A stretch of 64,000 nucleotides of DNA, from contig NZ_PVXQ01000012.1 of the NCBI RefSeq assembly GCF_002995745.1, positions 1 through 64,000 on the forward strand, in the 5' to 3' direction. The DNA is from Clostridium vincentii. Lineage in GTDB: Bacteria; Bacillota; Clostridia; Clostridiales; Clostridiaceae. The translations under genes were made by a program, and so were the position numbers. Positions 15,509-64,000 of this stretch are shown here, piece after piece (position 1 is the stretch's first letter; every line of letters begins with the position of its first letter). A model generated the notes under the pieces. That model saw only the letters and a list, made by a program, of their open reading frames with translations. It did not search any database and was not told the DNA's origin.

Positions 15509-15625
15509 ATTGAAAGTTGAAAGTTGAGAGTTAGGATTTTACCAGACATTTTCAATTCCCCGCACGGGGCACCCTTGGGTGTCAACTGTCAACTCCCCAC
15601 ACAGGGCGCCTTTCAGGTGTCAACT
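15509..15625. repeat. Dispersed repeat, copy 1 (GTTGAGAG/CCCC-GGGG type)
   Basis: It starts TTGAAAGTTGAAAGTTGAG and continues into AGACATTTTCAATTCCCCG-CACGGGGC-ACC-TTGGGTGTCAACT. The CCCC...GGTGTCAACT part is present twice in tandem (15558-15594 and 15595-15625). The outer arms GTTGA and TCAAC are in inverted orientation, and CCCCG/CGGGG and CACCC/GGGTG can form small hairpins. A related copy lies at 22270. It sits at the 3' end of the metal permease gene. Confidence 0.6.
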
Positions 15626-22269: not shown

Positions 22270-22385
22270 ACGGGGTTGAGATTAGAGTTGAGAGTTGAAA
22301 GAGGAGAGTTGAGAGTTAGAGCTTTCTCCGACATTTTTAATTCCCCGTAAGGGGCGCCAAAGGGCGTCAACTATCAATTCTCCCT
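22270..22385. repeat. Dispersed repeat, copy 2
   Basis: Several GTTGAGAGTTGA-type units are followed by GACATTTTTAATTCCCCG-TAAGGGGC-GCC-AAAGGGCGTCAACTATCAA. This aligns with copy 1 at 15509 in order and spacing, with one CCCC/GGGG hairpin unit instead of two. Confidence 0.6.
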
Positions 22386-55709: not shown

Positions 55710-55736
55710 TAAACTACAAAAAAATATATCCGATAA
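55710..55736 (+). promoter_or_regulatory. Sigma-28 (SigD/FliA) promoter of the late operon
   Basis: TAAA, a 16-base spacer, and CCGATAA match the flagellar sigma factor consensus. It lies about 34 bases before flgM. The same spacing recurs in front of flagellin. Confidence 0.75.
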
Positions 55737-55769: not shown

Positions 55770-56054
55770 ATGGATGTTAAAGGGATTGGATCTCATAATA
55801 TAATTAATGTATATAATAAAAATGCTAATAATAAGGTGGTTTCTAAGGAAGTTATAAAACAGTCAACAGACAGGATAGAAATTTCTAGTCTGGGTAAAAG
55901 CTTAACAGATTTTTCTCTAGAAGGTTTAAGTATTAATGATCCTTCTAAGATTGCAGAGCTTAAGAATAAGGTGGAAAGTGGAAATTATAATGTAGATGCA
56001 AAGTTAACAGCTAAGAGTATGATAAATTATATTAAGGAGACTAAAATCAAATGA
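55770..56054 (+). CDS. flgM: Anti-sigma-28 factor FlgM
   Basis: A 94-residue protein. DRIEISSLGKSL, then DPSKIAELKNKVESGNYNVDA and the terminal KLTAKSMINYIKE helix match FlgM, which holds the flagellar sigma factor inactive until the hook is complete and it is exported. It is first in the operon behind a sigma-28-type promoter, the standard autoregulatory arrangement. Stop codon overlaps the flgN start (ATGA). Confidence 0.9.
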   Translation: MDVKGIGSHNIINVYNKNANNKVVSKEVIKQSTDRIEISSLGKSLTDFSLEGLSINDPSKIAELKNKVESGNYNVDAKLTAKSMINYIKETKIK

Positions 56055-59312: not shown

Positions 59313-59690
59313 ATGAAAATTACTTTTAATAAAGGAATACTTGGATTACAAGAATATAAGGAATTTGATTTAGTAGATCTAGAAGGATTAGAACCTTATA
59401 AAATGTTAAAATCCGTTGAGGATAAAGAAATTGGATTAGTTGTTGGTTCACCTTTTGAAATGGATTTAGGATATGAAGCTAAAATTCCAAAAGAAACTCT
59501 AGAACATCTGCAAATATCCTCACAGGAAGATGTTTTGATTTTTACAACTATTAATGTGAATTCTGATGTAAGTAAGATTACAACAAACCTAAGGGCTCCA
59601 ATTATTATAAATGTTAAGAAATCCTTAGGAGAACAAATAATTTTAAATAATGAAATTTACAAAATAAAGCATCCTATGTATAAGGGGTGA
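59313..59690 (+). CDS. fliW: FliW, flagellin-binding CsrA antagonist
   Basis: The 125-residue FliW is recognisable by FNKGILGLQEYKEF near the start and ITTNLRAPIIINVKK near the end. In Bacillus-type systems FliW is held by free flagellin; when flagellin is secreted FliW binds CsrA and relieves repression of flagellin translation. It is 6 bases upstream of csrA. Confidence 0.93.
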   Translation: MKITFNKGILGLQEYKEFDLVDLEGLEPYKMLKSVEDKEIGLVVGSPFEMDLGYEAKIPKETLEHLQISSQEDVLIFTTINVNSDVSKITTNLRAPIIINVKKSLGEQIILNNEIYKIKHPMYKG

Positions 59691-59696
59691 AGATAA

Positions 59697-59912
59697 ATGT
59701 TAATTATTACGAGAAAAGAAGGAGAGTCCTTTTTAATAGGTGATGATATTGAAATTACTATAACTAAGGTAGCTGATGGTAATGTAAAAATAGGAATAGA
59801 GGCACCTAAAGAGATGTTAATACTTCGAAAAGAACTATATAAAGAGGTAGAAAATGAAAATAGAAATTCAGCAAAATTTGATTTAAGTTTATTAAAAGTA
59901 TTAAAAAAATAG
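59697..59912 (+). CDS. csrA: Translational regulator CsrA
   Basis: A 71-residue RNA-binding dimer. [20 protein letters not shown] and [18 protein letters not shown] are the conserved RNA-contact strands, with the key Leu/Arg (L4, R6 and R44-like) present. It binds GGA loops in mRNA leaders; the flagellin leader at 63464-63500 offers such sites. Confidence 0.95.
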
Positions 59913-60977: not shown

Positions 60978-62483
60978 ATGACTACCAGAATTACAGGACT
61001 TGCGACAGGGCTAGATGTTGATGCTATTGTAAAAAGTTCTATGCTTAAATATACAATGAAAGTAGATACAGCAAAACAAAAACAAGAAGTACTAGAAATT
61101 AAACAAAAATTATATAGAGATGTTATTACTAGCGGAAAGGATTTTTATAATAAATATTTTGATATAGCTAAGGGTGATAGCTTGTTAAATACTAAAAGTT
61201 ATTCTTCTGTTAGCTTTGAGTCTACTGATGCATCTGTAGCTACAGCTACAGGTACATCAAGTGCTGTTAAAGATAATTATGAGGTCACAGTAAGTAGCCT
61301 TGCATCAGCTGCAAAAAAGTCGTTTTCAGCCGCTGAATTAAGTGGAGATCAGCCTATTATGGTTACTTACAATGGAAAAACTGTCACTATTCCTACAGCT
61401 GATATGACGGGTAAGACAGAACCGGAAAGAGCTAAAGTTATTAATACCGCGTTAAGTACAATAGGCTTAAAGGCTAGTACTTCTGATTTTACTGCAGGTA
61501 TTCTTATAGAATCAGCTACAACGGGTGCGCTTATAGGAACAGCAGAAAATAGTTTTACTGGAACAATTGGTGGAGTTGCTTTCTCTAAGTCTGATGTTGG
61601 AACAAATCTACAAGCTGCAGTTACAAGCTCTAAAGGGACCGTTACTTATGATGGCACTGGTGAACCGGTATCTGCAAGTAATACTATAACTTTAGATGGG
61701 GTACAATTTTCACTTAATGCTGTAGGAACAACAACTGTTAGTGGGAAAATTGATGTTACAGAAACTAAGGATAAATTGGTGAATTTTGTTAATGATTATA
61801 ACACCTATATAGAAAAGTTAAATACACTAGTTATGGATACCCATGATAGAAGTTATACACCTTTAACAACTGAGCAGAAAGAAGCTATGTCCGAGGATGA
61901 GATTACGCTATGGAATGCAAAGGTTGAAAAAGGTCAATTAACAAGAGATAGTGATTTAAGTAGAATAGTAAATAGTTTGAAAAGTTCTATGGCAAGTTCC
62001 GTAAGTGGGATAAGTTCAATTCTAGAGAAGATAGGAATTACTCCTGTAGAAGATTATCAAACTCCTAAAAATGGAACATTTACTATTGATGATAGTAAAT
62101 TAACAACAGCATTAGAGGCGAATCCACAGGAGATTATGAAATTATTTATTCAAGTACCTGAATCTGACACATTAAGTGATTCAGAAAAATTCAGCCAAAC
62201 AGGAATTCTATATAGAATGAAGGACATTTTAAATAATGAATTTGTATCATCAACAAATTCTCCTCTTATAAATAAGGCTGGAATAATGGGAACAGCATCT
62301 TTTACCCAAAGTTCTTTATCTAAAAGTATATCGGATTATAAATCAAAGATAACTGAGATGGAAACAGCTTTAGCTACTAGAGAGCAAGCTTTTTATTCCA
62401 AATATGCTAAACTTGAGGTTCTGATGAATAATTTTAATACTCAACAGTCCAGCTTAGCATCAATGTTAGGAACTTCGTCATGA
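60978..62483 (+). CDS. fliD: Filament cap protein FliD
   Basis: The 501-residue protein opens TTRITGLATGLDVDAIVKSSM and closes with a coiled-coil MNNFNTQQSSLASMLG, the two ends of FliD/HAP2. The Ser/Thr-rich centre (about residues 75-260) is the surface-exposed variable region. It caps the growing filament and folds flagellin. Its stop overlaps the next start (ATGA). Confidence 0.94.
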   Translation: MTTRITGLATGLDVDAIVKSSMLKYTMKVDTAKQKQEVLEIKQKLYRDVITSGKDFYNKYFDIAKGDSLLNTKSYSSVSFESTDASVATATGTSSAVKDNYEVTVSSLASAAKKSFSAAELSGDQPIMVTYNGKTVTIPTADMTGKTEPERAKVINTALSTIGLKASTSDFTAGILIESATTGALIGTAENSFTGTIGGVAFSKSDVGTNLQAAVTSSKGTVTYDGTGEPVSASNTITLDGVQFSLNAVGTTTVSGKIDVTETKDKLVNFVNDYNTYIEKLNTLVMDTHDRSYTPLTTEQKEAMSEDEITLWNAKVEKGQLTRDSDLSRIVNSLKSSMASSVSGISSILEKIGITPVEDYQTPKNGTFTIDDSKLTTALEANPQEIMKLFIQVPESDTLSDSEKFSQTGILYRMKDILNNEFVSSTNSPLINKAGIMGTASFTQSSLSKSISDYKSKITEMETALATREQAFYSKYAKLEVLMNNFNTQQSSLASMLGTSS

Positions 62484-62806
62484 TAAATGAAATCTTAAGA
62501 AGCTATGGTGAAACAACAAAAAAAATTATATCATTTTTAGAGGTCGATAAAGATGTGGATGAATTGATGGAAAAAAGAGAAATGATCCTAAAGGAATTAG
62601 ATGGGTTAAAGTATACGTCTGATGAAAAATTGGAGTGTTATAAGGCTTTAGAATTAGAAGAGTTAGACAAAATCTTTGAGTCTACCATTAAAGGTAATAT
62701 GTTAAAGCTTAAAGAGAAAATAAAAGATGCTCAAAATAGAAAAGCTGCTTACACTAGTTATTCTTCTAATGATACACAAGGGAGTTTGTTTGCTAGGAAA
62801 GTTTAG
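62480..62806 (+). CDS. fliT: FliT-like flagellar chaperone
   Basis: A 108-residue helical protein with three heptad-like helices (SFLEVDKDVDELMEKREMIL, LECYKALELEELDKIFES, NMLKLKEKIKDAQNRKAAY). Size, helices and the overlap with fliD match FliT, the chaperone for FliD. The family is poorly conserved, so the call is mainly positional. Confidence 0.7.
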   Translation: MINEILRSYGETTKKIISFLEVDKDVDELMEKREMILKELDGLKYTSDEKLECYKALELEELDKIFESTIKGNMLKLKEKIKDAQNRKAAYTSYSSNDTQGSLFARKV

Positions 62807-62812
62807 AATATG

Positions 62813-62997
62813 TATAGAGGTTTGAAATATTGAAACGAATAGGATATTGTAAAGAGCACATGCAAACAGTTGAGAGTTGAAAATTGAGAGTAGAGAGTTG
62901 GGAGAGTGACTTTTTATTTTGATATTTAGGCTTGAGTTTATTTGAAATCAACAGTTTAGTTGGAAGAAAAATACTTGAGAAAATATTTTGAATTAGG
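62813..62997. repeat. Flagellin upstream repeat, unit A
   Basis: First unit (185 bases) of a tandem array. It begins TATAGAGG, the most diverged form of the TATAAAGTTCT start, followed by GAAACGAAT, GTTGAGAGTTGAAAATTGAGAG and ATCAACAGTTTAGTTGGAAG. Confidence 0.8.
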
Positions 62998-63176
62998 TAT
63001 AAAGTTCTGAAATATCGAAACGAATATAATAGTGTAGAGGATGAATAGTTGAGAGTTGAAGATTGAGAGTGGAGAGTTGAGGAATTGGCTTTTGTAGCTT
63101 GAAATTTATACTTAAAGTTATGTAGAATCAACAGTTTGGTTGGAAGAAAAATACTTGAAAAATATTTTAAAATAGG
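62998..63176. repeat. Flagellin upstream repeat, unit B
   Basis: A 179-base unit: TATAAAGTTCT, GAAACGAATATAATAGTG, GTAGAGGATGAATAGTTGAG, then GATTGAGAGTGGAGAGTTGAGG, ATCAACAGTTTGGTTGGAAG and ATACTTGAAAAATATTTT. The sigma-28-like box reads TAAA-N16-ACGAATAT. Confidence 0.85.
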
Positions 63177-63355
63177 TATAAAGTTCTCGAATATCGAAAC
63201 GAATATAGTAGTGTAGAGGATGAATAGTTGAGAGTTGAAGATTGAGAATGGAGAGTTAAGGAATTGGCTTTTCTGAATTGGGATTTATACTTAAAGTTAT
63301 TTAGAATCAACAGTTTGGTTGAAAGAAAAATACTTGAAAAATATTTCAAATTAGG
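63177..63355. repeat. Flagellin upstream repeat, unit C
   Basis: A 179-base unit very similar to unit B over its whole length, with scattered single-base changes (for example GAATATAGTAGTG). The box is again TAAA-N16-ACGAATAT. Confidence 0.85.
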
Positions 63356-63385
63356 TATAAAGTTCTCAAATATCAAACCGAATAT
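63356..63385 (+). promoter_or_regulatory. Sigma-28-type promoter of flagellin (array unit D)
   Basis: The last, partial repeat has TAAA (63358-63361), a 16-base spacer and CCGAATAT (63378-63385). It is the only unit with CCGA, as in the flgM promoter. Transcription would start near 63391. An overlapping TATAAT (63384-) could also serve sigma-A. Confidence 0.55.
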
Positions 63386-63463
63386 AATAGTGTACAGAGA
63401 ATATGAAAGTTAAGATAATTCTCAATTAAAAAGCTAGTAGGCTCAAAGAGCTTAACTATAGAT

Positions 63464-63500
63464 AGTGGACAAGGAAGTTCACTTTAAAAATCAAGGAGGA
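63464..63500 (+). promoter_or_regulatory. CsrA-binding sites in the flagellin mRNA leader
   Basis: AGTGGAC (63464-63470) pairs with GTTCACT (63477-63483, one G-U pair), presenting GGA in the hexaloop AAGGAA, the preferred CsrA target. A second GGA-rich site, AAGGAGGA at 63493-63500, is the flagellin ribosome site itself. This two-site arrangement matches the known hag leader of B. subtilis. Confidence 0.7.
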
Positions 63501-63507
63501 AATTATT

Positions 63508-64000
63508 ATGATTATAAACCACAATTTAGGTGCAATGAACGCTAACAGAAACATGGGTATTAACGCAAGTAATGCTAGCAAATCAATGGAAAAACTTTCA
63601 TCAGGTCTTAGAATTAACAAAGCTGGGGACGATGCAGCAGGTCTTGCTATATCAGAAAAGATGAGAGGACAAATCAGAGGATTAGATCAAGCTTCAGCTA
63701 ATGCTCAAGACGGTATTTCCATGATTGGAACTGCTGAAGGTGCGTTAAACGAAACTACTTCAATTCTTCAAAGAATGAGAGAACTTGCAGTGCAAGGTGC
63801 TAATGATACTAATACAACTGAAGATAGAACACAAATACAAAAAGAAATGAATCAGTTAACTTCAGAAGTAAGCAGAATTGGTAATCATACTGAGTTTAAT
63901 ACTCAATCATTACTTGATGGTAAATCAGGAGTTGTAACATCAGCGGCATCAGGAACATCAGCATCATCAGCATTTACGTTCCAAATTGGTGCAAATCAAG
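63508..64000 (+). CDS. fliC: Flagellin, 3' end outside the window
   Basis: The first 164 codons of flagellin are present. MIINHNLGAMNANRNMG, SMEKLSSGLRINKAGDDAAG and LAISEKMRGQIRGLDQAS are the conserved D0/D1 regions, with EGALNETTSILQRMRELAVQ following. At about residue 149 a Ser/Ala-rich stretch (SAASGTSASSAF) begins the variable part. A strong CAAGGAGGAAA ribosome site precedes it, and its translation is the likely target of CsrA. The window ends mid-gene. Confidence 0.95.
   Translation, partial: MIINHNLGAMNANRNMGINASNASKSMEKLSSGLRINKAGDDAAGLAISEKMRGQIRGLDQASANAQDGISMIGTAEGALNETTSILQRMRELAVQGANDTNTTEDRTQIQKEMNQLTSEVSRIGNHTEFNTQSLLDGKSGVVTSAASGTSASSAFTFQIGANQ

Follow-up and report, generated by a model that had tools for sequence, protein, structure and literature searches.

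Flagellin genes are among the known targets of sigma-28 (SigD), an example being hag of Bacillus subtilis, whose promoter is SigD-dependent. The common picture of a sigma-28 promoter is that of a single element. According to the accessible portion of one report, SigD promoters of C. difficile follow a consensus in which TAAA and CG are separated by 15-18 bases; flgK has ACGA, and for fliC a single SigD start has been mapped, 68 bases ahead of the start codon, with the sequence CCGATAA (PMC3865298). The part available of a second report predicts for C. difficile fliC a CsrA site of the A-N-GGA hairpin form, TGACAAGGATGT (PMC8523840). No multi-copy sigma-28 promoter array at flagellin was found in the literature; subscription papers lay largely outside the search, and such an absence is unproven. 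Here we describe a stretch of 64,000 nucleotides from Clostridium vincentii (hereafter the window), in which duplicated promoter-type boxes form an array upstream of flagellin, with parts resembling dispersed heptad tracts and with a conserved leader below it, all of which is established at the level of sequence.

Layout of the array and its flagellar neighbourhood

A 108-aa ORF ending at 62806 is separated from flagellin (63508) by 701 bases, most of which are filled by the array. The array consists of head-to-tail copies of a promoter with its flanks, three full units being followed by a promoter-only copy:

62795..62979, + strand: unit 1 (U1), 185 bases, farthest from flagellin, its start overlapping the end of the preceding ORF
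62980..63158, + strand: unit 2 (U2), 179 bases
63159..63337, + strand: unit 3 (U3), 179 bases
63338..63416, + strand: unit 4 (U4), promoter-only, then the flagellin leader

A previous reading of the same DNA without database searches (the sequence-only reading) had noticed a tandem array before flagellin, and Tandem Repeats Finder recovered it as a repeat of period 179 at 62868-63394 (2.9 copies, 88% match, score 787). In-register copies start at 62795, 62980, 63159 and 63338, with spacings of 185, 179 and 179 bases; the starts 62813, 62998, 63177 and 63356 proposed earlier are equally correct and describe the same array in a different register. U2 and U3 are 92% identical, while U1 shows 77% identity to U2 and 74% to U3. 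U4 is 81% identical to U2 and 80% to U3 over 80 aligned positions, and aligns to them in the promoter part alone, in agreement with the earlier description of a promoter-only fourth copy. The longest exact match between U2 and U3 is 39 bases, in register, and is at most 20 bases for the other unit pairs. The only ORF of at least 80 aa within the array (62793-63131) is antisense and was regarded as open by chance. Because the assembly is a draft of 99 contigs, in which identical copies may have collapsed, four copies represent the minimum as assembled. The array was absent from the 67 other Clostridium genomes searched.

The following genes of the flagellar neighbourhood accompany the array:

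55770..56054, + strand: FlgM, the anti-sigma-28 factor, over the cut-off in both libraries, with a sigma-28-type box at 55710
59313..59690, + strand: FliW
59697..59912, + strand: CsrA
60978..62483, + strand: FliD as best family match, below the model's curated cut-off
62480..62806, + strand: 108-aa ORF separating fliD from the array, without a family match
63508..64000, continuing to contig position 64452, + strand: flagellin, 314 aa

An ORF weakly similar to the 108-aa ORF (33% over 46 residues) occupies the same position in the flagellin region of a relative (G022). The C. vincentii genome also encodes a FliA_WhiG sigma factor (257.9 bits against a curated cut-off of 189.6). A second flagellin-like gene was located on contig C66 (7373-7780); immediately before this gene lie its own canonical box, TAAA-N15-GCCGATAA, and a heptad/four-helix-bundle element. 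Downstream of the flagellin of the array, L030 4871-10632 is likely a glycosylation island; its NeuB-type synthase was over its cut-off, its PseF-like cytidylyltransferase was just below its cut-off, and its MptE-like protein matched the PseD model far below the cut-off.

Sigma-28-type boxes in the window and in relatives

Each unit carries one candidate promoter box:

62815..62842, + strand: box P1, TAGAG-N16-CGAATAG, damaged, matrix score 17.7
63000..63027, + strand: box P2, exact TAAAG-N16-CGAATAT, matrix score 28.3
63179..63206, + strand: box P3, exact TAAAG-N16-CGAATAT, matrix score 30.1, the best of the window
63358..63385, + strand: box P4, exact TAAAG-N16-CGAATAT, nearest flagellin, matrix score 26.8

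The sequence-only reading had assigned TAAA-N16-NCGAATA to every unit. This is accurate for three of the four (63000, 63179 and 63358), and the farthest instead reads TAGAG-N16-CGAATAG. All 12 core positions are intact in P2 and P3, and P1 has lost its TAAA box and part of its -10. A TAAA -35 and a CGA -10 at a distance of 15-18 bases, as expected of sigma-28 promoters, are thus found in P2, P3 and P4 and are damaged in P1. The boxes lie upstream of a late flagellar gene in its coding direction (flagellin at 63508), and the cognate sigma and anti-sigma factors (FliA_WhiG and FlgM) are encoded in the genome.

We built a matrix of 48 columns from 34 distinct proximal flagellin boxes of other Clostridium genomes, none of them from the window. 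With this matrix, which is biased towards TAAAG-N16-CGA by the pattern used to pick its training sites, the four boxes ranked 1, 2, 3 and 5 on both strands of the 64-kb window (30.1, 28.3, 26.8 and 17.7 bits). Rank 4 was the site at 55710 before flgM (18.9 bits), and the next-best site scored 7.5. The training boxes scored 25.5 to 47.4 on their own matrix and 19.1 to 45.7 with each left out; P2-P4 are therefore ordinary, and P1 falls under the range of the relatives' proximal boxes. This low score and the damage to P1 fit decay without selection. The earlier description of the boxes as sigma-28-like is upheld, since a matrix from other genomes ranks all four in the top five, and their promoter identity is well supported at the level of sequence. 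In the last 600 bases before 60 Clostridium flagellins, TAAAG-N16-CGA occurred 47 times in the forward direction and never in the reverse direction. The same motif precedes a fliD-like gene (G012) and an amidase-like gene (G039), the gene names being read by eye from the DNA.

Pattern searches gave results of unequal value. In the window, TAAA-N15-17-NCGAATA matched six times against 0.72 expected, a number reached by none of 100 shuffles; four of the six matches fall in the array, one overlapping another. The NCGATA form of the pattern matched three times in the window against 2.03 expected and is therefore uninformative by itself. Genome-wide, all three matches of TAAAGT-N14-16-CGAATAT were in the array; because a backward control pattern also gave three, it is their clustering, not their number, that exceeds chance.

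It had been proposed that the ACGA copies were weaker or decayed relative to the CCGA copy nearest flagellin. The base before CGA in 35 proximal boxes of relatives was A in 19, T in 10, C in 3 and G in 3, and the top matrix score belongs to an ACGA box, P3 at 63179; we therefore reject ACGA as a sign of decay. ACGA is the commonest form in the relatives examined, which speaks against a requirement for CCGA. The related proposal that the farthest copy is the most decayed agrees with our data, as P1 is the only damaged box and U1 the unit with only 74-77% identity to U2 and U3. None of the nine columns that vary among U2-U4 falls inside the boxes, which account for 12 of 60 positions; this distribution is not significant (P = 0.11), and selection on the boxes among these units is accordingly unsupported. 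Sigma-70-like matches numbered 16 against 7.6 expected, an excess that stems partly from the repeated units, so sigma-A starts are possible. Attenuation by inter-unit terminators was also considered, and no terminator-like site was found in 62300-64000, a weak test given the 0.3 expected from shuffles.

For comparison, boxes were counted in 39 other Clostridium genomes, picked by hand, over the 1000 bases that precede each of 60 flagellin starts, at a matrix threshold of 16 and with the proximal training box of each locus left out. No box was counted in 18 regions, one in 30, two in 12 and more in none, against four in the window; the reverse strands gave none. Nine of the 18 matrix-negative regions had TAAA-N14-19-CGA in the last 400 bases, among them L245 with two good boxes. 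Two boxes are thus present in 13 of the 60 regions (12 by matrix and L245 by looser spacing), a single counted box in 38 (30 by matrix and 8 by relaxed spacing), and more than two in the window only; nine regions were boxless by both the matrix and the relaxed pattern (last 400 bases). Second matches in L228 and L249 were doubtful and were left out of these counts. The distance between the two boxes of a pair is 75-107 bases for 11 of these 13 regions, 136 in L245 and 214 in L254. The pairs of L274 and L227 lie far upstream, ahead of a csrA gene and a four-helix-bundle gene. Among 93 further regions, a looser pattern matched at least once in the last 500 bases in 65, with 74 forward against 5 reverse matches in 800 bases; eight regions had more than one match, some of them probably chance matches in coding sequence. 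Three SigD-type boxes were found in L086 (Neobacillus massiliamazoniensis) at -416, -338 and -258, spaced by 78 and 80 bases.

Coordinate comparison showed that a direct repeat spans two boxes in each of five loci: L245 (150 aligned positions, 84%), L255 (63 positions, 79%), L076 (63 positions, 76%), L141 (58 positions, 79%) and L148 (77 positions, 79%). Because L141 and L148 look related, these loci represent fewer than five events. The boxes of L076 are about 600-700 bases ahead of flagellin, before frames that are csrA-like by eye. Apart from the leader, the sole match between the window and L245 is 39 bases long (82%) and precedes a -35 box. The repeats of the other loci are not copies of the unit of the window, a conclusion for which program comparison covered L245 and not L076, L141 or L148. 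The heptad tract described below was not found in L245 or L255, nor was one seen in the inspected parts of L076, L086, L141 and L148. Judging from these loci, the common factor of the duplicated repeats is the promoter, not the heptad, and the four-copy array is best described as a longer version of the doubled flagellin promoters of some relatives.

Heptad tracts and the flagellin leader

Downstream of its box, each full unit contains a run of heptads:

62869..62889, + strand: heptad tract of unit 1, GTTGAGA-type 7-mers
63048..63082, + strand: heptad tract of unit 2
63227..63254, + strand: heptad tract of unit 3
63396..63430, + strand: probable right-end remnant of an inserted four-helix-bundle-gene element, from its likeness to L152 and L153

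By BLAST, unit positions 62-105 (the heptad part) had five genomic matches outside the array at E 0.001 or better. The heptad pattern with up to three mismatches matched 37 places in the genome against 25 for a backward control, perhaps because the heptad is nearly identical when read backwards, and the count is therefore weak evidence alone. When 14 heptad places outside the array were folded, most appeared, by eye alone, to form long and imperfect hairpins, one arm of which holds 7-mers of GTTGAGA type; C14, C2 and C12:82493 gave no clear hairpin, and the C8 place was left out. Further heptad tracts occur in the window at 15509-15531 and 22287-22309, both predicted hairpins by eye, and on contig C12 at 82493. 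The C66 place adjoins a four-helix-bundle gene (PF05635) and the second flagellin-like gene.

Elements of this kind were also detected next to flagellin in relatives. G022 (L152 2710-3084) has a complete four-helix-bundle gene with heptad ends between its second sigma-28 box and the flagellin leader, an arrangement in which this gene and flagellin may share a transcript. The G022 stretch that runs from the -10 box to within the heptads matches unit 2 at 79%. A gene-less form of the element stands directly before the leader in G021 and at the second flagellin of G041; heptad tracts of at least three units were present in 3 of the 60 regions (G021, G022 and G041). The stretch 63396-63430 resembles the right end of the element before the first flagellin of G041 and in G022. 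No PF05635 gene was recognized within the element of the array, where the only ORF of at least 80 aa is antisense and was judged without a family search; the element is thus at most a remnant. These shared junctions suggest that an ancestral element landed between promoter and leader and was mostly lost, its left end being amplified with the promoter. Small csrA genes (PF02599) were seen between the sigma-28 box and flagellin in G021 (L226 468-629) and G041 (L153 3660-3818), and in G041 a second reading frame near csrA appears similar to it.

Counterparts of the leader (63417-63507), conserved at 75-83%, precede flagellin in G022, G041, G027 and G043. Two hairpins were predicted in it:

63435..63458, + strand: leader hairpin 1 (predicted)
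63464..63483, + strand: leader hairpin 2 (predicted), with A-A-GGA in the loop, a CsrA-type site

As in CsrA-type leaders, A-N-GGA in a hairpin loop is accompanied by a second GGA at the ribosome site. In 57 of the 61 regions, counting that of the window, an A-N-GGA site is located 30-48 bases before the start, for the most part within a hairpin of CsrA type. The fourth pair of this hairpin was standard in 42 of 48 distinct hairpins, whereas shuffles averaged 21.2 and never exceeded 32; this test leans towards the hairpin, because sites were selected for their best pairing and come from related sequences. The inner three pairs were too invariant to test, and the outer two were without clear pairing. 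Whichever of the four boxes a transcript was taken to start from, its predicted fold kept both leader hairpins. Rfam gave no match up to E = 1 in 62000-64000, the CsrA-type stretch included, and a covariance model could be built from the A-N-GGA hairpin of flagellin leaders.

Function and origin of the array compared with known systems

We consider that the array is a working multi-start sigma-28 (FliA/SigD) promoter that originated by tandem duplication and raises or tunes flagellin transcription, with a probability of roughly 60%. RNA polymerase carrying the flagellar sigma factor would start at P2, P3 and P4, and weakly if at all at P1; for the upstream copies we infer this use. All transcripts would head to flagellin, meet no recognised terminator and share the CsrA/FliW-type leader. 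After FlgM export, a step of the established pathway, the extra copies may raise or tune flagellin transcription by dosage, more starts giving more flagellin mRNA. The array may have grown by unequal exchange from an ancestor with one or two promoters. In the order of events that we propose, a heptad-ended mobile element first landed just downstream of the promoter; because this would have preceded the growth of the array, each full unit would carry the left end of the element.

It is also conceivable, though rather unlikely, that only P4 matters and that units 1-3 are neutral debris of duplication, tolerated in the gap and decaying from the far end. The damage to both the TAAA box and the -10 of P1, the mere 74-77% identity of U1 to U2 and U3, the non-significant conservation of boxes among U2-U4 and the single counted box in 38 of 60 relatives' regions are all consistent with such debris. 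However, P2 and P3 are intact in 12 of 12 core positions, P3 outscores P4, and promoter duplication recurs in other species with different units. This recurrence also bears on the idea that the heptad/hairpin element drives the repeat with promoter copies as passengers, which is akin to the earlier suggestion of a repeat that carried a promoter along. The idea draws on the heptad tract in every full unit, the dispersal of such tracts through the C. vincentii genome and the heptad elements before flagellin in 3 of the 60 regions (G021, G022 and G041). It appears improbable, since the dispersed copies match the heptad part of the unit only (all five outside matches are heptad-only, and exact promoter matches are confined to the array), and other species duplicate flagellin promoters without a heptad tract, as in L245 and L255, with none seen in the inspected parts of L141, L148, L076 and L086.

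We give still less credence to the extra boxes being a switch or decoy, in which recombinational loss or gain of units shifts the flagellin level or the boxes titrate the sigma factor. The 39 identical in-register bases of U2 and U3 should in principle suffice for occasional unit loss, but the identical stretches of the other pairs do not exceed 20 bases, four sites per chromosome seem few for titration, and a single assembly was seen.

Returning to the multi-start promoter, we tentatively suggest a wider view, possible though still doubtful, in which flagellin output in Firmicutes has been evolutionarily tuned by repeated sigma-28 promoter amplification, anew in several lineages and to four copies here, one conserved CsrA leader keeping translation control common to all transcripts. 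Should the additional copies increase output, the number of promoters would act as a simple, reversible dial for a highly abundant surface protein, and comparative box counts would make this dial testable across many genomes.

Like the SigD flagellin promoters of B. subtilis hag and C. difficile fliC, the locus has, ahead of flagellin, TAAA and CG(A) boxes at a distance of 15-18 bases, and the genome encodes FlgM and a sigma factor of the FliA type. It differs in having four copies in tandem, the far ones reading ACGAATA, whereas one start is mapped for C. difficile fliC in the accessible part of its report. The leader shares with CsrA/FliW-controlled leaders a GGA in the ribosome site and, about 37 bases ahead of the start codon, a hairpin with A-N-GGA; here the leader lies below four possible starts with extended 5′ parts, and CsrA binding is putative. 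Four-helix-bundle (23S rRNA IVP, PF05635 / TIGR02436) genes with heptad flanks provide a further parallel, one being intact at this very spot in G022 and another lying beside the second flagellin-like gene of C. vincentii, whereas in the array no more than the left heptad end persists, together with what is probably a remnant of the right end. The closest likeness in box arrangement is to the two-box flagellin promoters of Clostridium and other Firmicutes, in which sigma-28-type boxes also stand in tandem, some within local direct repeats; those promoters have two boxes, mostly 75-107 bases apart, whereas the window has four at 179-185 with a heptad tract.
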